From assembly GCF_000418325.1 (NCBI RefSeq), contig NC_021658.1, positions 10,430,001-10,494,000 on the forward strand: a stretch of 64,000 bases of DNA, read 5' to 3'. The first letter of the stretch is position 1, and every line of letters starts with the position of its first letter. Position numbers and translations under genes: made by a program. Source of the DNA: Sorangium cellulosum So0157-2. GTDB lineage: Bacteria; Myxococcota_A; Polyangia; Polyangiales; Polyangiaceae. The notes under the pieces were generated by a model. That model was not told the origin of the DNA. It was given only the letters and a program-made list of their open reading frames with translations, and did not search any database. Shown one piece after another: positions 2,932-24,598 of this stretch.

Positions 2932-3768
2932 ATGCCGCTGACCCGTCTCGAGCTACGCGCACGCATCACACGGCTTCTTCGGAGCGACGCCGATCTCGAC
3001 AGCTTCGCCGGCGACTTTTTCCCCGAGGCGAGCGGCCGCTTCACGGACGGGATGGACCGGGTACGCAAGACGAACATCCTCCTCGATTACGCGGACCCGG
3101 AGGTGCTCGCCAAGCAGTTGCGTCTCCTCGAACGGTCGCCGAAGGCGGCGGCGAAGCCCGCCGAGGACGGCCCCATCAAGCTGCTCTATCTCGCCTCCAA
3201 CCCGACATCGATGGACCAGCTCGACCTTACCCGCGAGGCGCGGCGGATCGCAGACCGGCTCCGCGGGGGCAAGCCTCGGCGCGTCAACGAGATCGAGATC
3301 GTGCCACGCTGGGCGGTCCGGCGCAGCGAGCTTCAGCGGCTGCTCCTCGAGGAAGACCCGCATGTGCTGCACTTCTCCGGCCACGGCTCCGGCCGAGCGC
3401 GGCTCCTCTTCGAGGACGACGGCGGAAACATCGCGCCTCTGGAAGCTAAGTCGTTCGTGAGCCTGATCGGCATCCTCAAGCACCGCTTGCAGCTAGTCGT
3501 GCTCAACGCGTGCGACACCGAGCCGCTCGCAGGGGCGCTGGTCAGGCATGTCGCCTGCGCAGTCGGCATGCGCCGGGCCATCGGCGACGAGGCGGCGGCG
3601 ACGTTCGCCGAGACGTTCTACGAAGCGCTCTCGTTCGGAGAGCCGATCGGGGCGGCGTTCCGGCTCGCTCTGATCGCGCTCGAGATTTCGCCCATTCGTG
3701 AAGAACAAACGCCCGTACTGCGGTTCAAGCGCGGCGTCGATGCCGACAAGCGAAAGCTCAAGAGATAG
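2932..3768 (+). CDS. CHAT (caspase-clan) protease with N-terminal effector-associated domain
   Basis: A 278-residue protein. Residues 1-65 form a helical domain (ELRARI...LRSDADLDSF...FTDGMDRV) about half identical to the C-terminus of the STAND protein at 3890-7762. Residues 80-270 are a CHAT domain: strand IKLLYLASNP, catalytic His in HFSGHGSG (about residue 145), catalytic Cys in VVLNACDTEP (about 191), and the usual VGMRRAIGD and AFRLAL segments. CHAT proteases are caspase relatives and known effectors in bacterial conflict systems (for example the Craspase partner TPR-CHAT). Shared adaptor domains imply recruitment by the STAND sensor. The gene converges on the STAND gene with 121 bp between stops. 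The ATG lacks a strong ribosome site, so the start is moderately certain. Confidence 0.85.
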   Translation: MPLTRLELRARITRLLRSDADLDSFAGDFFPEASGRFTDGMDRVRKTNILLDYADPEVLAKQLRLLERSPKAAAKPAEDGPIKLLYLASNPTSMDQLDLTREARRIADRLRGGKPRRVNEIEIVPRWAVRRSELQRLLLEEDPHVLHFSGHGSGRARLLFEDDGGNIAPLEAKSFVSLIGILKHRLQLVVLNACDTEPLAGALVRHVACAVGMRRAIGDEAAATFAETFYEALSFGEPIGAAFRLALIALEISPIREEQTPVLRFKRGVDADKRKLKR

Positions 3769-3889: not shown

Positions 3890-6800
3890 TCACTTCTTCG
3901 GGCGGCGCCTCCGCAAGGCCTCGATGATGAGCCGTTGCTCCGCGCGATTGAGCAGGCACGTGACCTTCGCGACGCGATCCATCCCGTTCGTGAACCGTTC
4001 ATAGACCTCGGGGAAGTGGTCGGAACAAAAGGCATCGAGATCGCTGTCGCTGCGCAGCGCTTCCATGATTCGGGCTCGCAGCTCGTCGGCCGGGAGCTCG
4101 CGCCCCGGCGGGGCAGCTCGCTTCCCGCTCTTGGACAGCTTGTCACCGGCGCCGCCCTTGAGCGACGCATCTCGCAGGGGAGCTGGCCTGGGGGGTCGCC
4201 GCGGCGGCGTCGCCGGAGCGGCGGCGGGACGCGGCCGGTGCTCATCGTCCCGAAAGTCGGGCTGCACGTCGCCGCCGTCGAGCGGCTCCACCGCAGGATC
4301 GATCCAGTCGAGGATGTGCAACCCGCCCGCGCCGTCGCCGGCGAGGAACGTGCGGCCATCCGGGGTGACCGCGCAGCCGAGGAGGGGCGTGTGCGCTTCG
4401 ACCAGGGCGATGCAGCGCTCTTCGCAGAGATCCCAGACGCGGAGGGTGGTGTCCTCCGACGTCGAGATGGCCAACCGGCCATCGAGGGTCACGGCCACGC
4501 CGGTCACGATCGCCGTGTGACCCGTGAGGGTGCACACCTCCTGCCGCGTCCCGAGGTTCCACACCTTGAGCGTCATGTCCTCCGACGCCGAGAGGACGAA
4601 GCGACCGTCCGGCGTCACCGCCGCCGCGGTCACGCTCGCCGTGTGCCCGAGGAGCTCGAACAGCGCATCTCCGCTCGACAGGCTCCACACGATGAGCGAC
4701 TTGTCCTCCGACGCGGAGATGACCAGGCGCCCGTCGGGCGTCGCCGCCGCTGCGTTCACGCCGGCGGTGTGGCCCGTGAGCGTCTTCAGCTCACGGCCGC
4801 TCGAGAGCTCCCAGATCTTGAGCGACCCATCGCGCGACGCCGAGATCGCGAAGCGCCCGTCCAGCGTGACCGTCGCCCCGGTCACGCCCCAGGTGTGGCC
4901 GGCGAGCGCGCCATGCTGGCCGGTGGAGAGCTCCCAGACGCCGAGCGACTTGTCCTCCGACGCCGAGATCGCAAAGCGCCTATCGGGCGTCACGGCGACC
5001 CGCATCACGGGCGCAGCGTGGCCCTCCATGGTGCGCACGTGGCTGCGGGTCGATAGCTCCCAGAGCTTCAGCGTGCGGTCCCACGACGCGGTGACCGCCC
5101 AACGTCCGTCGGACGTCACGGCGATCCCGGACACTTCGGCCGCGTGCCCGTCGTGAGCACGGACCTCGCGGCCTCGCGACAGCTCCCACACCTTCAGGGT
5201 GTTGTCATGGGACGCGGACAGCGCAAGACGACCGTCCGGCGTCACCACCACCGCTGTCACGGGCTCGGCGTGCCCCTCGAGCGTGTGGACCGCTCTGCCG
5301 CTCGACAGCTCCCAGAGCTTCAGCGTGTTGTCCGACGACGTGGAGACGGCATAGCGACCGTCCGGCGTCACCGCCACGCCGTTGACCCAGCTCCTGTGCC
5401 CCTCGAGAGAGCGAATTTCTCGGCCGAGCCGTAGATCCCACACCTTGAGCGTGCCGTCCACCGACGCAGAGACCGCGAGACGACCGTCCGGCGTCACCGC
5501 CACATCCATGACGCCGTCGACATGACCGGAGAGCGTGTGGAGGAGGCGGCCGGTCACGAGATTCCACACCTTGAGCGTGCAGTCCTCGGACGCGGACACG
5601 GCGAGCCGTCCGTCGCGCGTCACCGCCACGCCGTTGACGATCTGGGCATGACCGGAGAGCGTGTGAACGAGGCGGCCGGTCGCGAGCTCCCAGACCTTGA
5701 GCGTGGCGTCCTCCGACGACGAGACGGCAAGGCGCCCGTCCGGCGTTACCGCCACGTCCTTCACCGGCCCCGTGTGGCCGGGCAAGGTGCGGAGCTCATG
5801 CCCGGTGGCGAGGCTCCACACCTTGAGCGTGGCGTCCTCCGACGCCGAGACGGCAAGGCGCCCGTCAGGCGTCACGGCCACGCCGTTCACGTGCGCGGGG
5901 TGGCCAGCCAGCGTGCGGAGCTCGCACCCGCTCGAAATGTCCCACTGCTTGAGCGTCCCATCGTGCGACGCAGAAATGGCCGATAGACCGTCGGGCAGCA
6001 GGGCGACCGCCCACACGGACCTGGTGTGGCCGGCCAGCGTTCGCACCAGCGCGTCGGACTCGCGGCTGGTGCGGAGCCGCTCGCGCAGCCACATCGCTCC
6101 GCGCTCTTGCAGGGCGGCCTCGGCCTGCGCCTGCACCTCTCCGATGCCCAGCTCGAAGCTGACGTTGCGGACCTGCTGAAGGAAAAACCCAGCCCCGTGC
6201 TCGGGCGTCCACCGGCGCAAACAGTGCGCCACCCGATCCAGCGGGCGCAGCAGCCGCCGGAAACGCTCCCGCTCGTCGGGGGCGGCGAGGGCCTCGCCCA
6301 GGCGCAGATCGGCGAGGACGGCGTCGAGCCCCCGCTCTCGGACCTCCGCCTCGATCCGGCCGATATCCCCGAGCGCCTTGCCGAGCCGTCGCGCGCAGCT
6401 CGCGGCGAACCTCTCCAGGTCGTCGATCTGCCTCAAGGCGAAGTCCCGCACGAGCGGGTGCAACCGAATCGCCCTGTCGCTCGGTGCCCCCCCGTGGGTC
6501 GCCTCTTCGGCGAGGGACCACGCGAAGAGCTCGTTCAGGGCCTCTTCGAGCGCGGCGATGTGACCGATCTTCGCCTTGTTCGACAGCCCCGTGAGGTGCG
6601 CGAGCGTCGCCCACGAGACGTGCGCCGCGCGCTGGATCAGCGCCGCTGCCTTGAGCACCTCGTGGGCCTCGGCGCGCCCGATCGCATTCCACTGGGCGCG
6701 CAGCGTGACCGTCACCATCGCCTCGCGCTGGAGGGTGGTGCGGAACGCGGCTGTCCTGGAGGCGTCCGCCGTGACGAGCGCTCCCTCGCTGGACAAGCGC

Positions 6801-7762
6801 GTGAGGTAGTCGGAGAGCGGTAGACCGGGCGACCTGCCGAGGTACGCTGCCGCCAGCGCGATCGCCAGCGGCAGGTGGCCCAGCGCGCGGCAGATCGCCC
6901 GCGCCACGCCGCGCTCCTCCGCGCGCTCGCCCTCGAGAAGGCTCCGCCGCGCATGGCTGGAGAGGAGCAGACGAACGGCGTCGTCCTCGCGAAGCTCCCT
7001 CAGGGCCACGGTCTCGAAGCCCGCGTCGGGGTCTTGCCGCTGCGTCGTAACGAGCAGCCGGCACGGCAGCTCCCAGGGGACGATGCCGGCCGCGGCCTTG
7101 CGGAGCGCCAGCGGATCCACGATGTTGTCGAAGATCACCAGCGCGCCGGGGTTGTCGGAGAGGTGTTGCTCGAAGGCGCGCACCCGGCGTCCGGGCCGCT
7201 CCGCCTCGGACGCGGCATCCTCGCTGAGATCGAGCCTCTCCGCGAGGTTCGCGAACTCGGCGACAAGGGGCGCTGCCGCGTTCACCCAGTAGACGCCTCC
7301 CGGATAAGCGCTCCGGTAACGGTGGGCGTATTCGAGGGCGAGCTGCGTCTTGCCGACGCCGCCCATTCCGACGAGCGCCGCGCGCTGGGTGCCAGCGGTC
7401 CCGCTCGTCAGGACGAGGTGAAGCCGCTCGAGATCGTCGTCGCGGCCGAGGAGCGGTCCCTCCTGACGGGAGGGTACCAAGAAGGGGACCTTCTCCTCGA
7501 CGAAGGCGCGGAGCTCCGGGTTATCGGGGTTCTTTCGGCGGGCCTGTTCGAGCAGCGCGTCGAGCCTCCCTTGCGCCCTCGCCCACTTGAGGAGCTCGAA
7601 GACGGCGGTCTGCAGGCTCCTCTCGGACGTGAGCGTATCGAGCTGCTCGCCGAGACCGTACCACACCAGCTCTTCGAGCGCGGGACGGCTCGGAAACGCG
7701 TCGAGGAGCGCCTTCTGAAAATTCTCGATCCGCGCGTGGTCCCACTTCCGCTTCGTGCCCAT
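3890..7762 (-). CDS. STAND NTPase sensor: EAD1-like + NB-ARC + 14 WD40 repeats + C-terminal EAD
   Basis: A 1290-residue multidomain protein. Residues 8-90 resemble effector-associated domain 1 (FQKALLDAFPSRPALEELV...). Residues 100-400 are an NB-ARC/AP-ATPase module with Walker A GMGGVGKTQ (about 131-139), Walker B LVIFDNI and a GHLPLAIALAAAYLG motif. A helical arm follows. From about 572 to 1160 come 14 WD40 repeats of roughly 42 residues (GH...VAVTPDGR...SAS.D.TLKVW), enough for two seven-bladed propellers. After a basic Pro/Ala linker, residues 1224-1285 hold a second EAD matching the N-terminus of the CHAT protease. Known STAND proteins bind a trigger through the repeats, oligomerise and recruit effectors by adaptor domains, and that role is inferred here. 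It lies 82 bp downstream of the HerA-type gene, probably in one operon. Confidence 0.88.
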   Translation of the reverse strand: MGTKRKWDHARIENFQKALLDAFPSRPALEELVWYGLGEQLDTLTSERSLQTAVFELLKWARAQGRLDALLEQARRKNPDNPELRAFVEEKVPFLVPSRQEGPLLGRDDDLERLHLVLTSGTAGTQRAALVGMGGVGKTQLALEYAHRYRSAYPGGVYWVNAAAPLVAEFANLAERLDLSEDAASEAERPGRRVRAFEQHLSDNPGALVIFDNIVDPLALRKAAAGIVPWELPCRLLVTTQRQDPDAGFETVALRELREDDAVRLLLSSHARRSLLEGERAEERGVARAICRALGHLPLAIALAAAYLGRSPGLPLSDYLTRLSSEGALVTADASRTAAFRTTLQREAMVTVTLRAQWNAIGRAEAHEVLKAAALIQRAAHVSWATLAHLTGLSNKAKIGHIAALEEALNELFAWSLAEEATHGGAPSDRAIRLHPLVRDFALRQIDDLERFAASCARRLGKALGDIGRIEAEVRERGLDAVLADLRLGEALAAPDERERFRRLLRPLDRVAHCLRRWTPEHGAGFFLQQVRNVSFELGIGEVQAQAEAALQERGAMWLRERLRTSRESDALVRTLAGHTRSVWAVALLPDGLSAISASHDGTLKQWDISSGCELRTLAGHPAHVNGVAVTPDGRLAVSASEDATLKVWSLATGHELRTLPGHTGPVKDVAVTPDGRLAVSSSEDATLKVWELATGRLVHTLSGHAQIVNGVAVTRDGRLAVSASEDCTLKVWNLVTGRLLHTLSGHVDGVMDVAVTPDGRLAVSASVDGTLKVWDLRLGREIRSLEGHRSWVNGVAVTPDGRYAVSTSSDNTLKLWELSSGRAVHTLEGHAEPVTAVVVTPDGRLALSASHDNTLKVWELSRGREVRAHDGHAAEVSGIAVTSDGRWAVTASWDRTLKLWELSTRSHVRTMEGHAAPVMRVAVTPDRRFAISASEDKSLGVWELSTGQHGALAGHTWGVTGATVTLDGRFAISASRDGSLKIWELSSGRELKTLTGHTAGVNAAAATPDGRLVISASEDKSLIVWSLSSGDALFELLGHTASVTAAAVTPDGRFVLSASEDMTLKVWNLGTRQEVCTLTGHTAIVTGVAVTLDGRLAISTSEDTTLRVWDLCEERCIALVEAHTPLLGCAVTPDGRTFLAGDGAGGLHILDWIDPAVEPLDGGDVQPDFRDDEHRPRPAAAPATPPRRPPRPAPLRDASLKGGAGDKLSKSGKRAAPPGRELPADELRARIMEALRSDSDLDAFCSDHFPEVYERFTNGMDRVAKVTCLLNRAEQRLIIEALRRRRPKK

Positions 7763-7844
7763 GCCAGTACCTTCGCTCGATCGTTTCGTCGCGACTCGCC
7801 ACGTCCGCGAGGGCGTTGGCCGCCGCCCCTGACCGCGCCCTCGC

Positions 7845-10800
7845 CTACTTCAAGCGCGCTCGCGACGCCTGTGCGCGCCGGAGGACGCCATCCTCGTCGG
7901 GAGGAGAGGCGGGGTGGTGCGAGAGGCACATCGGCACCGCGACCTTGACTGGCGCCGCCATGCCGTTGCCAGCCAGGTAAAAGCGGCCCTTGGGCAAGGT
8001 CGCCACGTCGAACTTCGTGCCACCGCGGACGCGGAGCTGCTCCTCCACGGTGGCAATCGCGGCCGAGGAGCTCACCTTTCCATAGAACTGGGTGCTCGCG
8101 TTGGCGATCACGTTGTGATCGATGCTCTTCGGCGCCTGCGTGGCGAACACCACACCGAGCCCGTACTTGCGCCCCTGCGCCACCAGCCGGATCAGGCTCT
8201 CCTTGCACGGCGTCGAGCCCTGCGACGGCACGAAGTCCTTCGCCTCGTCGATCACGAGGAGCCCGCGCAGCGGCCGATCGGGCGGACAAGGATTCTTCTT
8301 CACCCACGTGAACAGCGTCATGGCGAGCTGGTTGACGAACTGGAGCGGCGCATCGAGCCCCGGCAGGCCGACGAGGCTGAGCACGGAGACGCGAGGGCGC
8401 TCGGAGCCGACGCCGAAGAGGACGCCGGGATCGAGCGGCTCGCCCTCCTCGTGGAGGAGCGGGTTCGTCTGCACGGCGGCGCGAAGCGAGTCCGTAAGGG
8501 CGGTCGCGACCTTGCGGGCGGTCGAGATCTTGAGGCTCGCTGCATCGGGCAAGTCGCCCAGCACCTCGAGAAAGGCGAAGAGATCGCCGCCGCCCTCCTG
8601 TACGAAGAAGCGGAGCGCGGCGTGGAGGATCGCGCGAGCCTTCTCATCGGCCTTCTTTCCCGCCATCGCGGCCAGGGTGGAGGCGGTCATCGCGATCGCC
8701 TGGGTGAGGTCGTCGGGGTCTTGCGCGACGGCGGCGAAATCGGGGATCAGGCCGAGGTGCAGCGGATTACCGCTCGATCGCCCGGGCGTCCACACGATCA
8801 CGTCCGTCTGCGCGTGGTAGCGGGCCGCCTTCTCCGCGTCCTCGGCGGTGAACGCATCGGGGCGCTCGGGCCACGGCTCGCCGAGCCGGGTCAGGTCGTT
8901 GGCGCCGTCGACGACGATCGACGGTATCCCCAGCAGCGCTGTTTCCTCGATCAGGCGCCGGAGCAGCACCGTCTTGCCAGATCCAGCGCCGGCGAGCACG
9001 ACCACGTGCTGTTTGAGGTCCTCGGCCGGGATCACCTGCAGCGCGCCCAGCCGCTCGCCGATGACGTGGTGGCCGACAGCGACGACCGGCCGCGCCGCCG
9101 GCGCCGCGGGAGCCACGTGAGCCGCCGGTGAGGACACGGACAAGGTCACCGCAGCTGTCGCGACGACCGTCGTCGTGGCGGTCGTGGGCGACGCGGCGCG
9201 CGGCGGGGACCCGGGCGCGGCGGCCGCCGCGGTGGGCGCCGCGCTCGCAGGCGCGGCGGCGTGCGGAGAGCGCGCGAGCCAGTCGACCACCGGCTTCATG
9301 AGCGCGAGCTGAGAGGCGGGGCGGCGCTCGCGCAGCCACGGCTCGAACGTGTCGCGCTTCACGCGCTTGTCCCCGCGCAACGCGACCAGCGCGGCCAGCA
9401 CGCGCAGATCGCTCTCGTTGGCAGCGGTCAACTCGGCTCCTGCGGCGCGAGCCTTCGCCATCAGCGCGGTCGTCTTCGCGCCGCTCGGCACAGGGGCGTT
9501 GCGCACCAAGACGAGCTTGCGAAACTCGATCTGCCGGTCGATGCCGGACGCCGTCACGGCCGCCGTGAGCCGGGCCTGGAAGGCGATCGCGTTGTCCCGC
9601 GTGAGCGCGCGCAGGCAAAGGTGTCGCTCGCGATCGTGGTGGGCCGTGAAGATCTGGCGCACGCGCGCGTGGAGCGCCGGATAGTTGCGCTGCTCGCCGC
9701 TCTGGGCGTCGATCACGATCTCCACGTCAGGGTCGGGCGTCTGCTCGGCGACCGCGAGCTCGCACCCAGCTCGCAGCAGGTCTCCCAGCTCGTCTTCACC
9801 GTCCGGCTCGATGACCCCCTTCAGGCTCTTGACGGACGTGCGGAGGCGCTCGAGCTCCGCGTCGAGCCAAGCGTGCTCGCGCAAGGTGGCTTCGCTGGGC
9901 GCGGGCGCGATCTTCGTGCTCCGCGGCGGCGCCTCCTCGGCCACAAACGACGTGAGCTCGCTGACTCGCTCGTCATCGAGGCACTTGCGGCGGTGCTGCT
10001 CGCAGCGGCGGAGCAGGTCGCGCGGCGACTTCCCCCCGTCGGAGATGGAGGCGAACGCAGAAGGCGCAAAAGGCCATCGACGATAGGGAGGCGTGAACCC
10101 GACCCGCTTGTAGCCGTCGTCCAGGCGCGCGCTCACGAGATCCTCAGCCATCGCCACGTCGGACAGGTTCACGAGGATTCGCGGGTCCTCATAACGATGC
10201 GTGGTCGACTTCAGCGCTGTGGCCTTCATCTTGTCCCATGTTTCGTAGAGGCACGCCACGACCGTCAGCGTCCGGCGGGTCACGTCTCGGAGCTCCATCA
10301 ACCCGCGCCCTACGCTCTCGATGATGTTGCGCGAGATGATCTGCCGGGCCGTGTGCTCGTCCGGAACGCTGCTCGCATCGGCCAGCAGGTGGTGCTCGGT
10401 GACGATGGCGTCCAGGTGATCGATGGCGATGACCGTCGGGCATCGCAAGCTGGTGAGCCAGGAGAGGCCCTCGACCACCGCGCTCGGCCTCTTCTCGCGG
10501 ATGTTGAAGTCGAACTTCTTCATGTCGCTCTCGTCGACGCCGTGGCCTTGCAGCCAGGCGTATCCGAGGTTCGACAGCTCCATGTCGTCCGAGTTGAGGA
10601 GCACGAGGGCGCGGAGCGTGTCGGCGTGCTTGAGCGTCTGCGCCCGGTGCGCGCGCCCGAGCCCTTGCACCAGCGCGTCCATTTCATTCACGAGCTTCGG
10701 CGGGCGAAGCGTGGCCAGCTCTCGCGTCATGGCCGAACCGTCGCCGCCGCGCACCTGCGCGGCGATGTGCTGGACGATGAGCTGACCTTGCGTCCGGTCC

Positions 10801-11150
10801 GTCGCGCCCGCAGGTCTCTGGAGCGAATCGATGAATCCTAGGAGGACCGTCTCCCAGAAATCGTGGACGTCCGTCATGTGGACCAGGACGAAGCTCGCCG
10901 GCACCTTGAAGATCTCCCGCCGGATCGCGGAGAGCATGTGCGTCTTGCCGATGCCCGCGGGACCGACGAAGACCCAGCCCAACGGCGAGCCCGTCTCCTG
11001 GCTCTCGGCCATCGAACGGACCTTGGCGAGCACCTCGCGCCGCCCCCTCTGGTGCAGCGAAGGGACGTCGTACCGCGGATCCTGCCAGACGCTGTCGAGG
11101 TTCTGCGTGGACTGGAAATCGATCGCTTCGAACGCTTTCAACGCATCCAT
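7845..11150 (-). CDS. Fused AAA ATPase + HerA/FtsK-type DNA translocase
   Basis: A 1101-residue protein with two P-loop modules. The first has Walker A VGPAGIGKTH (about 58-67) and Walker B VIAIDHLDAI (about 238-247), followed by helical regions. An Ala/Pro/Thr-rich linker (about 627-675) precedes a HerA-like module: Walker A AGAGSGKTVLL (about 717-727), Walker B LLVIDEAKDF (about 963-972), the VAQGRKYGLGVVFATQAP segment and a C-terminal LPKGRFYLAG strand. HerA ATPases pump DNA for end resection with Mre11/Rad50 or NurA. The ATG at 11150 is chosen because a GAGGTGA site overlaps the upstream stop (11155), five bases away. The longer frame reaching 11180 would overlap that gene without a ribosome site. 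The fusion of the two ATPases is unusual. Confidence 0.8.
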   Translation of the reverse strand: MDALKAFEAIDFQSTQNLDSVWQDPRYDVPSLHQRGRREVLAKVRSMAESQETGSPLGWVFVGPAGIGKTHMLSAIRREIFKVPASFVLVHMTDVHDFWETVLLGFIDSLQRPAGATDRTQGQLIVQHIAAQVRGGDGSAMTRELATLRPPKLVNEMDALVQGLGRAHRAQTLKHADTLRALVLLNSDDMELSNLGYAWLQGHGVDESDMKKFDFNIREKRPSAVVEGLSWLTSLRCPTVIAIDHLDAIVTEHHLLADASSVPDEHTARQIISRNIIESVGRGLMELRDVTRRTLTVVACLYETWDKMKATALKSTTHRYEDPRILVNLSDVAMAEDLVSARLDDGYKRVGFTPPYRRWPFAPSAFASISDGGKSPRDLLRRCEQHRRKCLDDERVSELTSFVAEEAPPRSTKIAPAPSEATLREHAWLDAELERLRTSVKSLKGVIEPDGEDELGDLLRAGCELAVAEQTPDPDVEIVIDAQSGEQRNYPALHARVRQIFTAHHDRERHLCLRALTRDNAIAFQARLTAAVTASGIDRQIEFRKLVLVRNAPVPSGAKTTALMAKARAAGAELTAANESDLRVLAALVALRGDKRVKRDTFEPWLRERRPASQLALMKPVVDWLARSPHAAAPASAAPTAAAAAPGSPPRAASPTTATTTVVATAAVTLSVSSPAAHVAPAAPAARPVVAVGHHVIGERLGALQVIPAEDLKQHVVVLAGAGSGKTVLLRRLIEETALLGIPSIVVDGANDLTRLGEPWPERPDAFTAEDAEKAARYHAQTDVIVWTPGRSSGNPLHLGLIPDFAAVAQDPDDLTQAIAMTASTLAAMAGKKADEKARAILHAALRFFVQEGGGDLFAFLEVLGDLPDAASLKISTARKVATALTDSLRAAVQTNPLLHEEGEPLDPGVLFGVGSERPRVSVLSLVGLPGLDAPLQFVNQLAMTLFTWVKKNPCPPDRPLRGLLVIDEAKDFVPSQGSTPCKESLIRLVAQGRKYGLGVVFATQAPKSIDHNVIANASTQFYGKVSSSAAIATVEEQLRVRGGTKFDVATLPKGRFYLAGNGMAAPVKVAVPMCLSHHPASPPDEDGVLRRAQASRARLK

Positions 11151-11154
11151 CGGA

Positions 11155-11943
11155 TCACCTCGTGATGCAGAACAGATCACGCCGCTCGCCGGAGACCTGG
11201 AGCGCCGCCGCGTCGTCTTCGGGGCGAATCCGCTGCGGGTCGTCGATGGGATAGAGGACCGCGCCGCCCTGCCGCTGCATCTGGCGAAGCGCCGCGTCGA
11301 CGGCGTCTGCAGGCGCGTCGCCGAGCTGCGCGCGGAGCTGCGCGAGCCGGACGAACTCGTTCAAGACCCCGCCCGTCACCCGCAGGTACGCCGCGCGGAT
11401 CGGCGCCTCGAGGGCCGCGGGCTCGACGGCGCGCAACGCCGGCGCACCGAGCGGCTCGTGCGGTGTCGAGGCGCTCGCCGTCGCCTCCGGCGCGGCGGGC
11501 CGCGGCCGCAGCAGATGATCGAGCGCGAGGCCATGGACCTCCATGTACCTGGCGAGCCTGGCGAGGAGCGCCTCCAGCACTGTCGCCGCGGACGGGGTCC
11601 GCGAGAGCACCGCCGCGAGCCCCTGGCCGTTCGCCCACGCCCAGCCCTCGTCCGTCACGTGGAATTTCGCACCGTACGCTGGGTCGTTCTTCCTGGTGCC
11701 GGGCTCGATCGTGATCAACCGCGCGCCCTCGAGCGCCTTCAACGTGGCCCTGTCGAGCTTCACCTTCTGTTGCGACAGGGGCTTCCCGTCGCCGGTGAGC
11801 AGCAGCGCCCAGAGAGCAAACGCCTGCTTCCCCGTCAGGCCGCCGTTCGCTCGCTCAACGTCGCCTGCCGTCCGCTTCTGCCGCGCGGGTCGCGTTCGTT
11901 TCCTGGTCGCGCGTCTCTTGTGCGCGTTTGCTGTCGTCGTCAT
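11155..11943 (-). CDS. Winged-helix-like protein of unknown function in the SbcCD/HerA operon
   Basis: About 262 residues. It starts MTTTANAHKRRATRKRTR, a basic tail that could bind nucleic acid. It then has a segment with winged-helix character (LTGKQAFALWALLL...LDRATLKALEGARLITIEPG...FHVTDEGWAWAN), a variable middle rich in Ala/Pro, and a C-terminal helical-plus-wing segment ending LFCITR. A farther upstream GTG/ATG would lengthen the protein by 17 residues. The ATG at 11943 gives the basic start and is preferred. It sits directly before the HerA-type gene with its stop 5 bp from the next ATG, so the two are translationally coupled. I do not recognise a named family. A DNA-recognition or adaptor role is inferred from the fold and neighbours. 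Confidence 0.65.
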   Translation of the reverse strand: MTTTANAHKRRATRKRTRPARQKRTAGDVERANGGLTGKQAFALWALLLTGDGKPLSQQKVKLDRATLKALEGARLITIEPGTRKNDPAYGAKFHVTDEGWAWANGQGLAAVLSRTPSAATVLEALLARLARYMEVHGLALDHLLRPRPAAPEATASASTPHEPLGAPALRAVEPAALEAPIRAAYLRVTGGVLNEFVRLAQLRAQLGDAPADAVDAALRQMQRQGGAVLYPIDDPQRIRPEDDAAALQVSGERRDLFCITR

Positions 11944-12182
11944 GGCCCCTCGGAGTTCACGGTCTGCTGCGCCGCGAGCGCTCCTACGGCTCACGGCCGG
12001 GAATTGCCATCGCCCAGCTAGCCGAAAAGCTCAACACCCATCACGATGCCTCGCGGCCAAAGCGCAACGAGCCTGGGCGATGCAAGTCCGCATCGTCTCC
12101 GTCCATACGGTAACGCGACCTGGGTCTCGCCGCCGAAGCACGCTCGTCCATCGACGCGGAGCCCCGTGCGCGCTCGGCAGCC

Positions 12183-15100
12183 TCAAGGAGCACGGCGGGC
12201 CGCCGGCGCCTCGGCCGACGTCTGGCGCGCCTCGCGCAGCTGGTCGAGATCGACGGCATACGACGCCTGAAATCGATCGAAGCGCGGTCCATGGCAGGTG
12301 AGCAGGATGATCTGCAGCTCGCTCGCGGCGTCCCGGAGGATCTGCACCATCGACAGGAAGCGCGCGTCGTCGGTCCACCCCATGGTGTCGTCCAGGATCA
12401 GCGGGAGCGATCGCCCGTCCCTGGCCAGCACGCGGGCGAGGCTCAACCGCACGATCACCGATAGCTGCTCTCGCGTGCCGCCGGAGAGCTCGTCGAACTC
12501 CTCCGCTTCGCCGCGGCGCTTGACCTTGCCGAGCTTGAGCTCCCCTGTCATCTCGATCTCGGTCCCGGGCCTCAGCCGAGCGAGGTACGGCTTCGCCTCC
12601 TCCACGACGGGCGCGAGGAACAGGCATTGCGACTCTTTGTAGGCGTCCTCCACAACCGTGCGAAGAAGGCGGGCGGCGTTCGCCTCCCGCGTCATCCGCG
12701 CGAGCTCCTGCGCGGCGTCCCGTTGCTCGGCCTCTGCATCGCGGAGCGCCTCGAACCGCCCGTCCCCGGACGCCTTCTCGAGCAGCGTCCGGAGCCGCAG
12801 CTCCTCATCGTGCAGGCCGGCGATGCGCCGCTTGTGCGCATCGATGACGCCCCTCGCGCGGGGCACCTCGTCCCGCACGAGCAGCGGGATCGCATCCGCG
12901 AGCTCGGCCGCGGCGCGCTCCGCGCTCGCCCGCGCCTGGGCGTGCTCCCAGCGCGCGATCTCCGCTCGTTGGTAGAGGGCCGCATCGGCCGCGGCCCCCC
13001 GCAGGCCGGCGAGCCTCTCGGCCACGACGCGGCGCCGCGCGGCTCTCTCGTTCCGGACCGCCACCACCTCTCGGAGACGTTGCTCTCGCGCGCGAACCGC
13101 GCTTTCCGCGCGTTCCAGCGCCTCCGCGGCGCGCTCTGCGCGCGCCTGTAGCGGGGGCAGCGCCTCGCGGGCCTCGTCCACGTCCTGCTCGAGCGCGCCG
13201 CGCTCTTTCGCCGCATCGCCTCCGGCGCACGCCGTCGGAGCAGCATCCACCCCTCCGAGCGCTGCGGCGCGCGCTCGCAGCACGTCCAGCCCGTCGGGCG
13301 CTACGCTCGCGAGCCGCTCGCGCAGCTCGGCGATCCGCGCGCTCGTGATGATCCGCGCCTGCAAGCGCGCGCGCGCGGCCCCGACGTCGGTCACCGCCGC
13401 CCGCTCTAGCGCCTCGCGAAGCCGCCGCTCGACCCCGTCGACGTCGAGCTCTCGACCGACCTCGCCGGGGATGATCTCCCACACGATCCCACCCACCGCC
13501 TCGGGGCGCATCGCGCGCTGTACGGCCCATGCGCGCTGGGGGCCCGAGGCGACCGGACCGGCTACCGCGCGTACGCGCGCCTGGCGCCGCGCGACGGCGG
13601 CGTCCGCCGCAGCGAGCGCGCGCTCGAGGGTCACGAGCCGCGCGAGCGCCTCGCCGGTGACCGGGTTCTGCGCCAGCGCGACCTCGATCCGCGCGTGACT
13701 CGCGAAGGCCTCTCTCGCCTCGATGAACGCCTTCTCCGACGAGACGCTTCGCTTGCGTGCCTTCTCGACCTCCGCGCGGAGCGCCTCGATGCCGTCCGGC
13801 GCCGCCTTGGCGAGGCGCTCTTCGGCCTGCTCGCGGACAGCGTCGAGCTGCGTCCAGGCCCGGGCTGCCTGCGCCGCGCCCTCGAGGTCGGCGACCCCGA
13901 GCGCTTCCAGCATCGCGGAGAGATCGCTCTCGCTCCGCTCGAGGGCGGCCCGGGATTTCGCGAGATCCTTGCCGCGCGGCTCGAGCGTAATCTCGGCAAT
14001 GCCGTCGAGGACCACGGTCGTGCGGACGGCCGACGTGAACGTCTCGCACGAGCCGGCCTTCACGCGCCTGGCTTCCTGCGCGCCCGCGAGCCGGACCCGC
14101 AGATCGGCGAGAGCGCGCACTTCCACGCGCGTCGCGATCGCATCGCACGACGCGCGCTGGACTGCGACGCCCCGCTCCCGCGCCCGCAGCGCATCCATCG
14201 CCGCCTCGTCGACGCGGTGCGCGGCGAGGGCGCGCACGCTTTCCTCGCGATCGCGGTCCGCTCGCATCGCCTCGTCGAGCGCGGACTCGATCCGCGCGCG
14301 CTGCGCGCGATCCGCGTTCACCCGGAGCTCGAGCGCGTCGAGCCCCTTCGGCGCGAGCTTCTTCTTCAGCACGCCGAGCGCCTCGTACTCCCGCGCGGCC
14401 TCGGCCCGCGCCGCGCTGCTTGCCCTCGCCGCCGCCACGTCCGCGACGCCGAGCGCACGGAGCGCCTCCTCGAGCGCCGCCCGCTGTTTCTCGGTCTCCG
14501 CGAGCGCCTGTGCGAGCCCGGGGCGGGCCGGCTCTATCTCCAACCGCCCGAGCTCAGGCACGTCGATCGTCGACGCCGCGCCGACCGCGTGAACGCTCTG
14601 ACGCCCGTCCGCGGTCAACGCGACGATGCGCGTCCCCTCGGCATCGAGCCGGGCGCGGACGGCCTTCGCCCTCTCCGTCAGGACCTCGACCTCCTCGAGC
14701 AACCGCTCGTCGAGCGTCTCCGTCTCCAGGCGGCGAGACGCTTCTGCCAGCTCGGCGGCCACCTCCTCGGCCGCGCGCAGGTCGTTGGCGGCGCGGGCCG
14801 CCTCGTCGCGCCGGCGCGACCGGTCGAGGTTCGCCACGGCGGCATCCAGCGCCGCCCGTGCCTGGAGGGCCGCCCCTCTCGCGCTGCTGGCGTCCTCGCG
14901 CGCGCTGGCCGCCTCGCGCTCCGCGCTCTGAATCGTCCGCACGAGCTCGGCCGCGTCCTCGTCGTAGGCGGCGATCGCCGCGTCCAGCTCCGCCGCTTCG
15001 CCCGCCAGCGCAGCGCGGGCCTCCACCTCCCGCTGAGCCGCCTGGCACCTCGCCTCCGTCGTCGCGACGAGCGCGGCAGCGTCGCGCGCGCTCTCCTCGA

Positions 15101-15926
15101 GCGCGCGCACGCGGCGCTCCGCCGCGACGGCGGCCTCGAGCTCTCGCTCGAGCTCCGGGAGCTTCCGCTCGGCGTCGCGCAGCTGCTCGCTGAGCTCCGC
15201 GTGCGTCCGCGCGAGCTCCTCGACCGCGGCCTTCGCCGCCGCGATCGCCTTCACGCGCTCGTCGGCCGCCCTGAGCCTGTCCTGCGCCGCGCGGTACTCG
15301 CCCGTCGGGCCCCTCGCGTTGCTGAACAGCGCGGCGTGCTCGATCACGCGGGTACGCAGCCGCTCGCCGTGCTTGCCGCCTAGCACCTGGCCGACCTGCC
15401 TACCGATGACGTCCGAGAGCGCCCCGCGCACGTGCTCATCGAGGGAACCGCCCGGATCGGCCGACGCGCTCTCGTCTTGCGCGACCCACAAGAGCCCCCA
15501 GAGCCCCATGTGGTTCCGCGAGCGGTCGCGCTTGCCCGGGCGCCGTCCTTCTAGCTGCGAGAGCAGCAGCTCCTCCGCGCTCGCGCCGTGAACCTCCGTG
15601 TTGTCGCGATGGAGGCGCACGTCGACGACCGGCCTCTCGAGGAATCGCTTGTGCACGCTGACGCGCTCGCCGCCGAGCTCCAGCTCGACCCAGATCTCCG
15701 GCGCGTTCCGCGTCCCGCGCGTCCTGAGCGACTGAACGTGCTGGTTCTCGGAGTCGTGCCGCTCGAAGAGCGCCGCTCGCAGCGCCCTGACGAGCGTGGA
15801 TTTACCCGCCTCGTTCCGGCCGCTAATCACGTTGATCCCAGCGGAGAACGGCCCGAGGTCGAACCGTCCGACCAGGTTGCCGACATCCTGCACGCAGAGG
15901 CGGAGGAGCTTGATCCCCTTGTTCAT
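12183..15926 (-). CDS. SbcC/Rad50/YhaN-like coiled-coil ATPase
   Basis: A 1247-residue SMC-like ATPase. The N-terminal half-ATPase has Walker A SGRNEAGKSTLVRAL (about 32-46). Between about 200 and 1080 lie long Glu/Ala/Arg-rich coiled coils. The C-terminal half has the ABC signature ELSGGTREQLS (about 1144-1154), Walker B LPLILDDTMGW (about 1172-1182) and a final LLTCHGPRF segment. I see no CxxC zinc hook at the coiled-coil apex, which fits YhaN-type rather than classical Rad50 proteins. The ATG at 15926 overlaps the TGA of the nuclease gene (ATGA), the normal sbcD-sbcC arrangement, which fixes the start. The longer upstream frame is rejected. It would partner the nuclease at DNA ends. Confidence 0.87.
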   Translation of the reverse strand: MNKGIKLLRLCVQDVGNLVGRFDLGPFSAGINVISGRNEAGKSTLVRALRAALFERHDSENQHVQSLRTRGTRNAPEIWVELELGGERVSVHKRFLERPVVDVRLHRDNTEVHGASAEELLLSQLEGRRPGKRDRSRNHMGLWGLLWVAQDESASADPGGSLDEHVRGALSDVIGRQVGQVLGGKHGERLRTRVIEHAALFSNARGPTGEYRAAQDRLRAADERVKAIAAAKAAVEELARTHAELSEQLRDAERKLPELERELEAAVAAERRVRALEESARDAAALVATTEARCQAAQREVEARAALAGEAAELDAAIAAYDEDAAELVRTIQSAEREAASAREDASSARGAALQARAALDAAVANLDRSRRRDEAARAANDLRAAEEVAAELAEASRRLETETLDERLLEEVEVLTERAKAVRARLDAEGTRIVALTADGRQSVHAVGAASTIDVPELGRLEIEPARPGLAQALAETEKQRAALEEALRALGVADVAAARASSAARAEAAREYEALGVLKKKLAPKGLDALELRVNADRAQRARIESALDEAMRADRDREESVRALAAHRVDEAAMDALRARERGVAVQRASCDAIATRVEVRALADLRVRLAGAQEARRVKAGSCETFTSAVRTTVVLDGIAEITLEPRGKDLAKSRAALERSESDLSAMLEALGVADLEGAAQAARAWTQLDAVREQAEERLAKAAPDGIEALRAEVEKARKRSVSSEKAFIEAREAFASHARIEVALAQNPVTGEALARLVTLERALAAADAAVARRQARVRAVAGPVASGPQRAWAVQRAMRPEAVGGIVWEIIPGEVGRELDVDGVERRLREALERAAVTDVGAARARLQARIITSARIAELRERLASVAPDGLDVLRARAAALGGVDAAPTACAGGDAAKERGALEQDVDEAREALPPLQARAERAAEALERAESAVRAREQRLREVVAVRNERAARRRVVAERLAGLRGAAADAALYQRAEIARWEHAQARASAERAAAELADAIPLLVRDEVPRARGVIDAHKRRIAGLHDEELRLRTLLEKASGDGRFEALRDAEAEQRDAAQELARMTREANAARLLRTVVEDAYKESQCLFLAPVVEEAKPYLARLRPGTEIEMTGELKLGKVKRRGEAEEFDELSGGTREQLSVIVRLSLARVLARDGRSLPLILDDTMGWTDDARFLSMVQILRDAASELQIILLTCHGPRFDRFQASYAVDLDQLREARQTSAEAPAARRAP

Positions 15927-17053
15927 GACGCGGCCCTGTACAGGCGAAGAAGGAGGCGCAACGCCTCGGCGCGCTCGACCTCTGAGGTTCCATCGATCGG
16001 CCCGCGAAGCCGCGCGACCGCCTGACCGAGCCACCCCTCGGCGGGGAGGTTCGCCGCGTCGGCCTCGTCGGCGACGGTCTTCAGCCGTTCATCGCGCACC
16101 CGCAGAAAGCGGAAGCGGTGGCGCGCGGCCTCCATGAGCTCGTCGAGGCGGGCCCGCGTCGACGCATCGATCGCCCCTGTCAGCGTGAGATCGAGCAGCG
16201 TGATCCCCTTGCGCGCGAACCCGTCGAGGTGGCGCTCGAGGCCGACGAGATCGGCGGCGCCGTCGAGGTGGCGCTCGGCGCTCTCCCAGACGAGCCCCGC
16301 CACGGGGCGCGGCGTCACGCGCGGCGCCGCGCCGGGGGCGTCGATCTCCACCACGAGGACGCTGCCCGGTTCCTTCTCGGTGAAGTGCGTGGCCTCCGGC
16401 GTACCCGAGTACCAGGTGCGCTCGTCGATGCGGAGGCGCCCGTGCCAGTCGCCGAGCGCGAGGTAATCGAGACGCGCGCGGGACGCGCGATCTGCAGGGA
16501 TGGCGTTGTGGACGCGCTCGCCGTCGCGCGCCACCCGCTCGAGGAACTCCTTGATGCCGCCGTGGGCGACGCCGATGCGCACGTGATCGCGCGGGCCAAG
16601 CTCCGGCGTGAGGTGCTCGGTGACGTCGCCGAGGGTGTGCCGTTCGAAGAGCGGACAGCCGAGGAGCGCGACGCCCTCGCGGACAATCACCGGCTCTCGC
16701 GAGCCGAGGAGGTGGACATGGCGCGGACACTCCCGGCGCCACAGCTCGCTGCGGTAGAGGGCGTCCGAGCTGAGCGGGTCGTGGTTGCCTGGTAGGAGGT
16801 AGATCGGCGCCGGGATCTCGGCCATCGCCTCGAAGGCGCCGTGCAGCGTCGCCGGGCGCAGGCCGTGGTCCTCGAAGACGTCGCCGGCGACGACGATGAA
16901 CTCGGCCTTGGTCTCGCGGGCGACGTTGCCGATCTCGCGGAGCGTCTCGAAGCGCTGGTTGCGCACGAGGGCGCCAGCATCGCCGGGGATGAAGTCCGCG
17001 CGAAAGCCGAGCTGCCAGTCAGCGGTGTGGATGAAGCGGGTGGATGGACGCAT
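15923..17053 (-). CDS. SbcD/Mre11-like DNA repair exonuclease
   Basis: A 376-residue calcineurin-type phosphoesterase. Metal-binding motifs appear in order: FIHTADWQLG (first Asp; the usual DxH histidine is Gln, as in YhaO-type relatives), VVAGDVFED, LLPGNHDPLS, GVAHGGI and LALGDWHGR. A C-terminal capping region follows. Mre11-family enzymes are Mn-dependent 3'-5' exonucleases and endonucleases that act with an SbcC/Rad50 ATPase. Its stop overlaps the ATPase start (ATGA). The ATG at 17053 gives MRPSTRFIHTADWQ, placing the first motif at the expected distance, and upstream codons are not conserved-looking. It is the first gene of the block, with 167 bp of non-coding DNA upstream for a promoter. 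Confidence 0.87.
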   Translation of the reverse strand: MRPSTRFIHTADWQLGFRADFIPGDAGALVRNQRFETLREIGNVARETKAEFIVVAGDVFEDHGLRPATLHGAFEAMAEIPAPIYLLPGNHDPLSSDALYRSELWRRECPRHVHLLGSREPVIVREGVALLGCPLFERHTLGDVTEHLTPELGPRDHVRIGVAHGGIKEFLERVARDGERVHNAIPADRASRARLDYLALGDWHGRLRIDERTWYSGTPEATHFTEKEPGSVLVVEIDAPGAAPRVTPRPVAGLVWESAERHLDGAADLVGLERHLDGFARKGITLLDLTLTGAIDASTRARLDELMEAARHRFRFLRVRDERLKTVADEADAANLPAEGWLGQAVARLRGPIDGTSEVERAEALRLLLRLYRAAS

Positions 17054-17220
17054 GGCGCACCGACCAGGTCGAGACGAAGCGCGCCGGCCCTCCGGTGAGC
17101 CGGTGCCCACGCCTCGAACGGACCCCCTGGTTTGACCGCGATCCCGCGGTCAGCGCCATCGGCAGAGTTGCGTACCGGGCCTGTGGCGCGGAGGTGCGGG
17201 CGCGCTCTGCGATGGTCCTG

Positions 17221-18315
17221 TCACGCGTCGAGCCACGCCTCGCGAAGGAGCAGCATGAGCTTCCTGCGGTCCCGAACGCCGAGCTTGTCGTAGATGCTCC
17301 GCAGCTGTTTCTTCACCGTCCCCGGCGCGTTCTTCACAGCCTGGGCGATCGTCTTGTCGTCCCAGCCGCAGCCGGCCCTGGAGGCCACAGCACGCTCGCA
17401 CTCCGTGAGCTTCTCTGCGAGCGCCTTGGGCACGGGTGGGACGTCCGGCACCTCGCGGAGCACCAGCGCCCAAGATGGCTCACCCCTCGGCTCGGATAAG
17501 GCGAGGAACTTCACCCTGAGGCTCACTCCATTTCTTGCCCTCTTCCACGGCCGTGCCCCCTCCGCACCCATCCTCCACGCGGCCTGCGCCTTGGCCAGCC
17601 CCGCGAGCAACGGCCGCGGCAAGCTCCCGGCCACGCGCTCGGCGGGCTCGAACCACCTGTCGAGCAATCCAGCGGCCCCCGCCGTTCGGTCGAGCTCCCA
17701 CCCGGAGGAACGCACGAGGACGATCGCGTGGGTCCCTCCCTCGAGGAGCGCGTCCAGGACCTGGGGCCAGCGCGCAGCCTTGGCGGACAACCAGCAGTTG
17801 CTGACCGCGTGGGAGATCGATTGTGTGAGCTCCTGCAGCACCGCCTGATCGCGCAGGGAGAACGGACGCGGTCGAGCCCGGTAGAGCGAGAGGCCGCTTC
17901 GGAAGCCGGTATCAACGGGCAGCATGACGGCCATCACCTGCTCGATCGGCGCGCCCAGCTCGCGCGACCACTGGTACAGCTCGTTCCGTTGGAGAGCCTT
18001 CCGGTCGATCATCTGGTCGTCGCGCAGGACGACGCCCGGGCTCGACTGCACCGCGGTGAGCACGAAGTCGGAGCTCTCCATCCTCTCATAGGCGCCGAAG
18101 AACGCCTCCGGCAGGCCCTTCTCGACCCAATCGAGCTTGGTCCCGCGCTCCAGCGACGTCGTGGCCAGCGCAGCGCAGTCGGCCCCGACGAGCGGTAAGA
18201 GCAGGGAGAACGCGTCCCCTAGCAAGTCGTTCACATCGCGCGCCGCCACGAGCGCGGTGCTGATCTCCAGCATCTTCTGCAGATCGCGCTTCCCGAGCGA
18301 GCTCCCCTTCGCCAT
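17221..18315 (-). CDS. GAF-like sensor with LuxR-type DNA-binding domain
   Basis: A 364-residue transcription regulator. The N-terminal half (about 10-165) has the layout of a GAF domain (LLPLVGADCAALATTS...LPVDTGFRSGLSLYRARPR PFSLRDQAVLQELTQ...). A variable middle follows, and residues 295-355 form a LuxR/NarL helix-turn-helix (LTECERAVASRAGCGWDDKTIAQAVK, TVKKQLRSIYDKLGV, a recognition-helix pattern). It should bind DNA in response to a ligand or redox signal. It starts 38 bp after the acyltransferase gene and is probably cotranscribed with it. That pairing suggests it may respond to the acyltransferase product, which is inference. Confidence 0.8.
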   Translation of the reverse strand: MAKGSSLGKRDLQKMLEISTALVAARDVNDLLGDAFSLLLPLVGADCAALATTSLERGTKLDWVEKGLPEAFFGAYERMESSDFVLTAVQSSPGVVLRDDQMIDRKALQRNELYQWSRELGAPIEQVMAVMLPVDTGFRSGLSLYRARPRPFSLRDQAVLQELTQSISHAVSNCWLSAKAARWPQVLDALLEGGTHAIVLVRSSGWELDRTAGAAGLLDRWFEPAERVAGSLPRPLLAGLAKAQAAWRMGAEGARPWKRARNGVSLRVKFLALSEPRGEPSWALVLREVPDVPPVPKALAEKLTECERAVASRAGCGWDDKTIAQAVKNAPGTVKKQLRSIYDKLGVRDRRKLMLLLREAWLDA

Positions 18316-18353
18316 GGGCCCAGACTACCACGGGGCCGCCGCGCGGCAGCAGC

Positions 18354-19142
18354 TCAGCGGCGGTCGAGGGCGCGCTGAAACGCCTCGGTGCGCACCGCGT
18401 CGGCGAGGTCCACGACGAGCGGCAGCGAGCACACGGTGTAGCCCCGTTCCCGGATGGGCCGGCCCATGTAGCGCGCCGCGAGACGACCAAACGTGGACAG
18501 CGTACGCGGCAGCCGCAGCCCCCGGAGGTCGCCGGCTCGTGCCCGGGCGCGCTCCGCCGGCGTGTAGAACGGCTGCACCGAAGGCCCAGACGCGCTCGCA
18601 TCCGGCCTCGACACGACGCACCATCGAGGGCTCACGAGGCCGTTGCGCTCCGCGATCCGGTAGGCGATCTCCGCGTCCTCGAGCGCGTCGGTCTCCGCGT
18701 TGCCCGCGCCGACCCAGTGCGTGAGCCCGACGCGCAGGCTCTCGCGCACCATGGCAAGGTAGAGCGCGCACAGCACCGCGGCGCCTCGGTGCTCCGGGAC
18801 GACGCACATCCGCGACACCTCCGCGACCGATACCCCGGCCCCCACGAACGGGCCGAGGTCGTACCGCGCGGCGAGATCGACCCCGAACGGCTGCCCGATC
18901 CTCTGCGCCACGCCCCGGTTCGGGCGGATGAGGCGCGCCGTCGCCGCCGGGGCGCCGTCGACGTAGGCAATGAAGTGGAGCGTCGTCTCGAGATCATCAA
19001 AATCATCCATCTCCCGGTCGAGCGTGGTGGCGTGACGGCTCACGAGGCCTTTCTCCTTCACGAACACACGATATCGGACGCCCTGTGCGTCCGCGATCTT
19101 CTCCTGAGTATCGGCAATACCGACACCAATATGCTTCTTCAT
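18354..19142 (-). CDS. GNAT-fold N-acyltransferase, FeeM/LuxI-superfamily type
   Basis: A 262-residue protein. The start region GVRYRVFVKEKGLV with the following acidic DDFDDLETTLHFIAYVDG resembles N-acyl-amino-acid synthases (FeeM) and the wider LuxI-like group. VSVAEVSRMCVVPEHRG is the acyl-CoA/ACP-binding motif A of the GNAT fold. Products would be N-acylated amino acids or related signals, but the substrate cannot be told from sequence. The ATG at 19142 has a GGAGGAG ribosome site directly upstream. It sits between the haem-oxygenase-like gene (108 bp away, with a strong hairpin between) and the LuxR-type regulator. Confidence 0.7.
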   Translation of the reverse strand: MKKHIGVGIADTQEKIADAQGVRYRVFVKEKGLVSRHATTLDREMDDFDDLETTLHFIAYVDGAPAATARLIRPNRGVAQRIGQPFGVDLAARYDLGPFVGAGVSVAEVSRMCVVPEHRGAAVLCALYLAMVRESLRVGLTHWVGAGNAETDALEDAEIAYRIAERNGLVSPRWCVVSRPDASASGPSVQPFYTPAERARARAGDLRGLRLPRTLSTFGRLAARYMGRPIRERGYTVCSLPLVVDLADAVRTEAFQRALDRR

Positions 19143-24513: not shown

Positions 24514-24598
24514 ACCTAGAGCATTTTTCAATGGATTCTGCTACAGCCCTGCGAAAGCGACACTGACGGCGGAGCGCGCATCGCGGCCCTGATCGCCG
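24514..24598. other. Convergent intergenic region
   Basis: 85 bases between the DUF6119 and CoiA-like stop codons. It is short, with no clear hairpin. Confidence 0.3.

Follow-up and report, generated by a model that had tools for sequence, protein, structure and literature searches.

A winged-helix/HerA gene pair beside SbcD-SbcC and STAND genes in Sorangium cellulosum and its likeness to predicted HerA/FtsK capture systems

The closest described relatives of the locus analysed here are the predicted 'HerA/FtsK capture' systems, which according to the available text of PMC10853773 combine an Orc/CDC6 AAA+ ATPase, an inactive restriction endonuclease (iREase), a restriction endonuclease (REase), HerA and a winged helix-turn-helix (wHTH) protein. 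BREX-Related Capture (BRC) loci, as presented in the accessible part of PMC12839542, bring together HerA/FtsK, a STAND NTPase, an ORC/Cdc6 AAA+ ATPase and the wHTH-type DUF4007; the combination of HerA and STAND has thus been published before. Copies of an EAD adaptor on an NTPase protein and on a nearby caspase-like effector are described in the available portions of PMC7159879 and PMC8195603; the former predicts homotypic EAD bridging, and the same effectors may instead be fused directly. We analysed a window of 64,000 nucleotides of Sorangium cellulosum So0157-2 (bases 10,430,001-10,494,000 of a 14.78-Mb single-contig genome, GC ~70%), in which a codon-usage gene caller and a list of open reading frames (ORFs) confirmed five minus-strand genes, namely SbcD, SbcC, a wHTH gene, an AAA-HerA fusion and STAND. 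The initial annotation had taken these genes for one composite DNA-sensing immune system with a CHAT protease gene converging on them. The reading that we favour, and hold to be somewhat better than evenly probable from the genes alone, is an anti-invader machine most like HerA/FtsK capture, with the SbcD-SbcC pair (SbcDC) in the effector position and the STAND and CHAT proteins downstream. It is carried by a constant core gene pair, the varying neighbours of this pair, a HerA tree that joins the SbcDC form to DUF559 forms, and a stretch shared by STAND and CHAT.

Likeness to described systems

The locus has in common with HerA/FtsK capture an AAA+ ATPase, HerA/FtsK, a wHTH protein, a candidate REase-like part following the AAA+ core, and a nuclease of its own, on single or multiple polypeptides (available text of PMC10853773). 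It differs in that the partner here is SbcDC, and in kindred loci TIR, AIPR or CBS/HEPN-like proteins, whereas that text names REases and a 3'-5' exonuclease as effectors. It mentions TIR and NACHT for Orc/CDC6 genes outside the HerA association, and Mre11, Rad50 and DUF559 are absent from the main text as available. Taking the components in turn, the HerA/FtsK ATPase is present by Pfam, Foldseek, Walker A and Walker B, and the wHTH protein, with two winged-helix-like parts in its model, is found at 13/13 loci. By its AAA_22 match the AAA+ part is a candidate for the Orc/CDC6 clade, and the window holds no active REase partner, SbcDC being in that position. The locus works like HerA/FtsK capture; we do not claim membership, because its Orc/CDC6-type AAA+ part and its iREase are candidates and the window lacks the REase partner.

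BRC differs in also having PglZ, with GNAT/TGT in a subset, and in a STAND protein that is a BrxB homolog; SbcDC and CHAT were not found in the accessible part of PMC12839542. Among the Foldseek matches, SIR2-HerA, DUF4297-HerA and HerA-NurA likewise join a HerA-type motor to a partner enzyme. Neither a fusion of the AAA+/REase-like type nor a constant wHTH partner is known to us in these three. Titles and abstract beginnings in open-licence PubMed Central (PMC) yielded no description of SbcDC or of a STAND-CHAT gene with an AAA-HerA fusion. HerA with STAND being known, what appears to be new, as far as gene content indicates, is SbcDC in the effector position of a HerA/FtsK capture-like kind that has itself only been predicted.

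MADS and Lamassu were considered and rejected, each having a single strong component among the ten proteins scanned. HerA matches mad8 of MADS (PADLOC, 5.2e-26) and the other MADS matches are weak P-loop ones (mad3-SbcC 6.9e-5, mad8-SbcC and mad8-sigma-54 activator), while SbcC matches LmuB of Lamassu (1.5e-18) and LmuA has no match.

The core gene pair and its changing neighbours

The AAA-HerA protein consists of three parts, AAA+, an REase-like middle and HerA, a composition that had gone unremarked. Pfam gives AAA_22 followed by DUF87/HerA_C matches that are weak and below the Pfam cut-offs for HerA, and a Foldseek search with the HerA part returned HerA-NurA, HerA and SIR2-HerA first and DUF4297-HerA lower. 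In the AlphaFold2 model built from 8 sequences (mean predicted local distance difference test score, pLDDT, 72.5; predicted template modelling score, pTM, 0.42) the middle part runs helix, three strands, helix, strand, helix, strand. This order fits the restriction-endonuclease fold, and the modelled part is thus a candidate REase, probably an inactive one. The number of invariant D/E/K residues in the 8-row alignment is 0. Two things speak against the assignment: a 4-row alignment keeps D450, E469, E508 and D581 invariant, with no lysine, and the Pfam scan gave no REase match.

For the survey of relatives, tblastn with AAA-HerA gave 3 records from the plasmid collection (query coverage 87-91% in each), and an alignment-based genome scan gave at least 8 further loci. 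Adding the window and G003, another species of its genus, brings the number of loci to 13, the 11 others lying in Alphaproteobacteria, Actinomycetota and Hydrogenedentota. Neighbours were identified by BLASTP at E<=1e-3 with the two best matches listed per gene, and three of the contigs are just 13-16 kb long. We found that the wHTH gene directly precedes AAA-HerA in 13/13 loci, with an overlap or a gap of at most 4 bp. Of the 11 other loci, L004, L008 and L012 have the window's wHTH among the two best matches listed, and in the rest that place is taken by the wHTH of L005 or L006; the wHTH alignment took in 9 of 12. The HerA part of L013 is spread over two frames.

The genes beside this pair vary: DUF559 in 7 loci, TIR with a KGGVGR-ATPase in 2, SbcD-SbcC in 2, AIPR/AbiU in 1 and a CBS/HEPN-like gene in 1. 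The DUF559-type genes lie upstream of wHTH in L004, L005, L006, L008, L010, L012 and L014 and carry a VE(I/L/V)D motif in all seven; they were called by Pfam for L006 and L008 and by BLASTP plus the motif for the other five. In L008 the DUF559 ORF has a TTG start and ends 346 bp upstream of wHTH. A TIR gene accompanied by one for a KGGVGR-type ATPase is present at L007 and L009 (Pfam scan of L007), and L013 has no upstream effector and an AIPR/AbiU gene directly downstream. Neither SbcD nor SbcC has a BLASTP match in the 11 loci outside the genus, the three short contigs included, and the five-gene set is accordingly not supported as a general system. STAND has no match there either, except a 330-aa WD-repeat-like match (1e-7) to one L004 gene.

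The conserved core is the wHTH and AAA+/REase-like/HerA gene pair, smaller than the five-gene set. As a composite, the set proposed initially recurs in G003 of the same genus, but as a unit it is found at 0/11 loci outside it. A pattern in which only the SbcCD pair is conserved was not seen: what stays constant is wHTH with AAA-HerA, whereas SbcDC varies between loci. The immune context suggested for the locus agrees with the defence-type genes (TIR, AIPR/AbiU, nucleases) that the pair adjoins elsewhere.

In a tree of the 13 AAA-HerA proteins the window and G003 join L008, a DUF559 form, with support 93/93, under the tool's starred level, and the three then join two Methylobacterium DUF559 forms at 100/100; the rooting is by midpoint only. 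This grouping makes it probable, as far as the protein tree tells, that in this genus SbcDC took the place of a DUF559 nuclease. DUF559 forms stand on both sides of the midpoint-rooted tree, so replacement by SbcDC is the simplest interpretation, provided that the SbcDC branch does not hold the root.

The wHTH protein of the window has no Pfam match. Its AlphaFold2 model shows two winged-helix-like parts (pLDDT 76.9, pTM 0.45). It could be a transcriptional regulator of the set that stands outside any DNA-capture complex: a fold search with the model, with no match at E<=0.001, brought out a resemblance to MarR/PadR-type regulators, and a profile comparison with winged-helix regulators of solved structure gave weak matches (best 0.0033). 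We regard this as rather improbable in view of the junction of at most 4 bp with AAA-HerA throughout the loci examined, and of the wHTH-AAA order in a split relative in the same genome. In the 77-genome phylum sample, which does not include G003, the wHTH profile has a full-length match in the window's own genome only; weak matches in G077 and G047 were discarded, having an ArsR-like look and no HerA adjoining.

The split relative (G000:C1:186500-192600; L035 6514-12590) is unfused, in the order wHTH - AAA - PDDEXK_1 - HerA. Its wHTH matches the profile at the C-terminal winged helix (1.1e-9), and its PDDEXK_1 nuclease (8.3e-15) lies in a frame missed by the gene caller. From its domains we read this second HerA locus as having the same functions on separate proteins, its nuclease being a plain one.

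Two other loci deserve description. At L011 (5651-8220) the neighbour of wHTH/AAA-HerA is a CBS-domain gene that contains an RNELAH stretch, and a Csm6-like CARF-HEPN gene lies on the opposite strand; the RNELAH stretch may correspond to a HEPN motif (PADLOC 0.019). In L006 (Tsukamurella, 8769-18832) a cluster of ribosomal-protein genes encloses DUF559-wHTH-AAA-HerA along with a DEAD helicase and a VapB/PIN pair.

The SbcD-SbcC pair and the STAND and CHAT proteins

The hallmark gene pair of SbcCD/Mre11-Rad50, a metallophosphoesterase and an ABC ATPase, is present in the window. Walker A, signature and Walker B are all retained in SbcC, which matches Rad50 models at 9.2e-13, below cut-off; SbcD matches TIGR00619 (sbcd) at E 7.8e-9, also below the model's cut-off. 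The SbcD/Mre11 motif I is usually DxH. SbcD here keeps AGD, GNHD and GDWH and has DWQ as motif I, as do 4 other SbcD proteins compared. The CxxC zinc hook of the coiled coil was found in 0/5 SbcC-like proteins compared, the window's included. The earlier naming of the pair is thus borne out by gene pairing, domains and motifs, but the absence of the hook had escaped notice.

SbcD was searched in 12 relatives and the own genome, with matches in the latter, G003 (77%), G011 (37%) and G009 (E 7.3e-7), and none in 9/12 relatives, including G001, G002, G004 and G005 of the same genus (the G002 genome is 89% complete, in 890 contigs). SbcD without a match in 4/5 other genomes of the genus looks accessory, and a housekeeping SbcCD is unlikely with matches in just 4/13 genomes. 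In archaea, HerA with Mre11/Rad50 resects DNA ends. A dedicated DNA-repair operon could follow the same scheme, with HerA and the Mre11/Rad50-type nuclease resecting breaks and STAND/CHAT unrelated to them; the Rad50 and sbcd matches just given, both below cut-off, and HerA-NurA among the structural matches of HerA would agree with it. We consider it very improbable, as SbcD has no match in most relatives, wHTH/AAA-HerA adjoins TIR, AIPR or DUF559 genes elsewhere, and HerA is fused to AAA+ and an REase-like domain. The archaeal resection that the initial annotation had used as a model holds as an analogy, but HerA is here part of a fusion with AAA+ and a probably inactive REase-like domain.

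SbcDC relatives occur in 109 plasmid records, 65 of them from Rhizobium, none covering 80% of SbcC. One such relative lies inside a restriction-type operon and is counted in favour of the capture-like reading. On a Sphingobium plasmid of conjugative type (L015, 629-16610) a related SbcD-SbcC pair lies amid a RecB-like nuclease, a methyltransferase, a restriction endonuclease and a DUF3320 gene.

The STAND protein has EAD1 and 13 WD40 stretches by Pfam; its name comes from Walker A and our reading of the sequence, the NTPase domain not being among the 25 Pfam rows listed. Its C-terminus and the N-terminus of the CHAT protein are alike in 35/65 positions (54%, E 3e-20), a shared domain that had not been remarked on before and that is the hallmark of EAD-coupled modules, the same EAD on NTPase protein and effector. 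For the STAND copy the Pfam scan gave EAD7 at 8.4e-6, below cut-off, and for the CHAT copy it gave no family. The CHAT protein contains SGHG and NACD stretches, which we take to be catalytic. In G003, STAND and CHAT form one ORF of 1433 aa from the likely start, with no detectable copy of the EAD7-like stretch between them; the CHAT segment there has the opposite orientation to that of the window. Because of the shared stretch and the fusion, STAND is best placed with CHAT on sequence grounds, and the CHAT gene that was reported to converge on the set is tied to its STAND side. The arrangement is like the EAD-coupled STAND/caspase modules in having the adaptor on the NTPase protein and on a nearby caspase-like effector (available portions of PMC7159879 and PMC8195603), and unlike them in that a split adaptor-bearing pair and a direct fusion without detectable adaptor share a syntenic locus in two species.

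Proposed machine, conservation and surroundings

The core would be a two-gene DNA-capture machine made of the two-winged-helix protein and the AAA+/REase-like/HerA protein. Its AAA+ and winged-helix parts would put the complex on invading DNA and the HerA ring would pump the captured DNA, feeding or triggering the partner encoded alongside, which in most relatives found is a DUF559 nuclease. In this genus SbcD-SbcC (Mre11/Rad50-type) would cut, degrade or resect the DNA so presented. The WD40-STAND protein may be a second-line alarm in the same response, its WD40 repeats sensing persistent infection and its activation of the CHAT protease taking place in cis in G003, where the two are fused, or in trans in the window, by way of the EAD7-like domain common to both; CHAT proteolysis would then lead to abortive infection. 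We speculate, tentatively and with doubts outweighing confidence, that the core is a plug-and-play pump handing DNA or a signal to whichever effector is docked, with SbcDC as an immune nuclease and the STAND-caspase part as a fail-safe, fused or adaptor-linked. If so, a HerA pump would have taken up an Mre11/Rad50-family complex as one of its exchangeable effectors, and a repair enzyme would be linked to defence. The sibling loci, fused without detectable adaptor and split with the adaptor on both proteins, are a natural experiment on the proposed rule that bacterial EADs replace covalent fusion, and the series of DUF559, TIR, AIPR, CBS-HEPN-like and SbcDC on one core allows a test of whether sensing belongs to the core and the partner is left with execution alone.

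G003 has all five genes in the same order and strand, with identities of 62-76% for the first four and 65% for STAND. The ratios of nonsynonymous to synonymous substitutions (dN/dS) between the window and G003 are 0.26-0.46 for all five, so the genes are maintained; the maintenance is not specific to the set, because three of four flanking genes have similar values.

Several observations weigh against the capture-like reading. SbcDC stands beside wHTH/AAA-HerA in the window and G003 alone (one genus, 2 genomes). Upstream effectors elsewhere overlap wHTH or lie within 42 bp of it in 9/10 cases, L008 being the exception, as against 239 bp here. The synteny with G003 reaches past the set (window about 750-22125), which makes it one inherited neighbourhood, so that the five-gene order there is not an independent co-occurrence; the flanking syntenic genes have dN/dS of 0.26-0.34 in three of four cases (GAF-LuxR 0.71). 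G011 has an SbcDC pair without wHTH or HerA, beside metabolic and ribosomal genes, and one plasmid pair lies near replication genes. The REase-like fold comes from a model of moderate scores (pLDDT and pTM as above). AAA-HerA has no phage-record match and 0 relatives in two viral-contig scans, and a viral origin was rejected on the same results.

The linkage of SbcDC to the core may therefore be an inherited neighbourhood. An alternative hypothesis could be that two or three independent modules adjoin by inherited synteny, namely an accessory SbcDC, a wHTH/AAA-HerA pair whose own nuclease was lost, and STAND/CHAT. The SbcC-wHTH gap, the extended synteny, the SbcDC pairs without a core in G011 and on plasmids, and the 0/11 other AAA-HerA loci with a STAND neighbour of such a kind all agree with it. 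We think it unlikely, if worth keeping in mind, given that SbcDC is on the same strand and at the effector position of the other loci, that the gene calls from STAND to SbcD include no further nuclease, and that the order is kept in G003 at the identities given.

The genes of the proposed capture-like machine lie in the window at the positions listed in Table 1. The ATGA overlap of SbcD and SbcC, the 82 bp between HerA and STAND, the gap after SbcC and the convergent CHAT gene are all as first annotated; the wHTH-HerA junction is short as stated, but it measures 4 bp, one less than the 5 bp given. The SbcC-wHTH gap is 234 bp in G003, with 126/240 aligned columns identical to the window's, and a putative promoter inside it is possible.

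Table 1. Positions of the genes and domains within the window
Feature	Position	Strand	Remarks
SbcD/Mre11-like metallophosphoesterase	15923..17053	-	376 aa; Metallophos; G003 ortholog 76-77%
SbcC/Rad50-like ABC ATPase	12183..15926	-	1247 aa; AAA_23; LmuB profile 1.5e-18
SbcC-wHTH gap	11944..12182		239 bp
Protein with two winged-helix-like parts (wHTH)	11155..11943	-	262 aa; constant AAA-HerA partner
AAA+/REase-like/HerA fusion	7845..11150	-	1101 aa; mad8 profile 5.2e-26
N-terminal AAA+ domain of AAA-HerA	9951..11060	-	residues about 31-400; AAA_22; Walker A GPAGIGKT
Middle domain of AAA-HerA, candidate inactive REase	9273..9893	-	residues about 420-626; helix/strand order
C-terminal HerA DNA-translocase domain	7881..9083	-	weak DUF87/HerA_C; Foldseek
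STAND-type protein	3890..7762	-	1290 aa; EAD1 - NTPase - WD40 repeats - EAD7-like C-terminus
EAD1 domain, STAND N-terminus	7493..7747	-	Pfam PF19955, 2.1e-21
EAD7-like domain, STAND C-terminus	3896..4084	-	PF19960 E 8.4e-6, 25.9 bits, cut-off 32
CHAT caspase-like protein	2932..3768	+	Pfam CHAT; SGHG and NACD stretches
CHAT N-terminal stretch	2950..3144	+	54% identity over 65 aa to STAND C-terminus; no Pfam match of its own

About 2.7 kb to the left of CHAT (242-2932) have no confident gene call and two short blastn matches to G003. Directly upstream of the set and on the same strand (17221-19142) are a GAF-LuxR type regulator and a FeeM-like acetyltransferase, in an order kept in G003, and signal-dependent control of the set by these genes is possible. 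Further out (22936-26332) lies what is possibly another conflict module, made up of a DUF6119 protein and one whose C-terminus is of the Xre/MbcA/ParS toxin-binding type.

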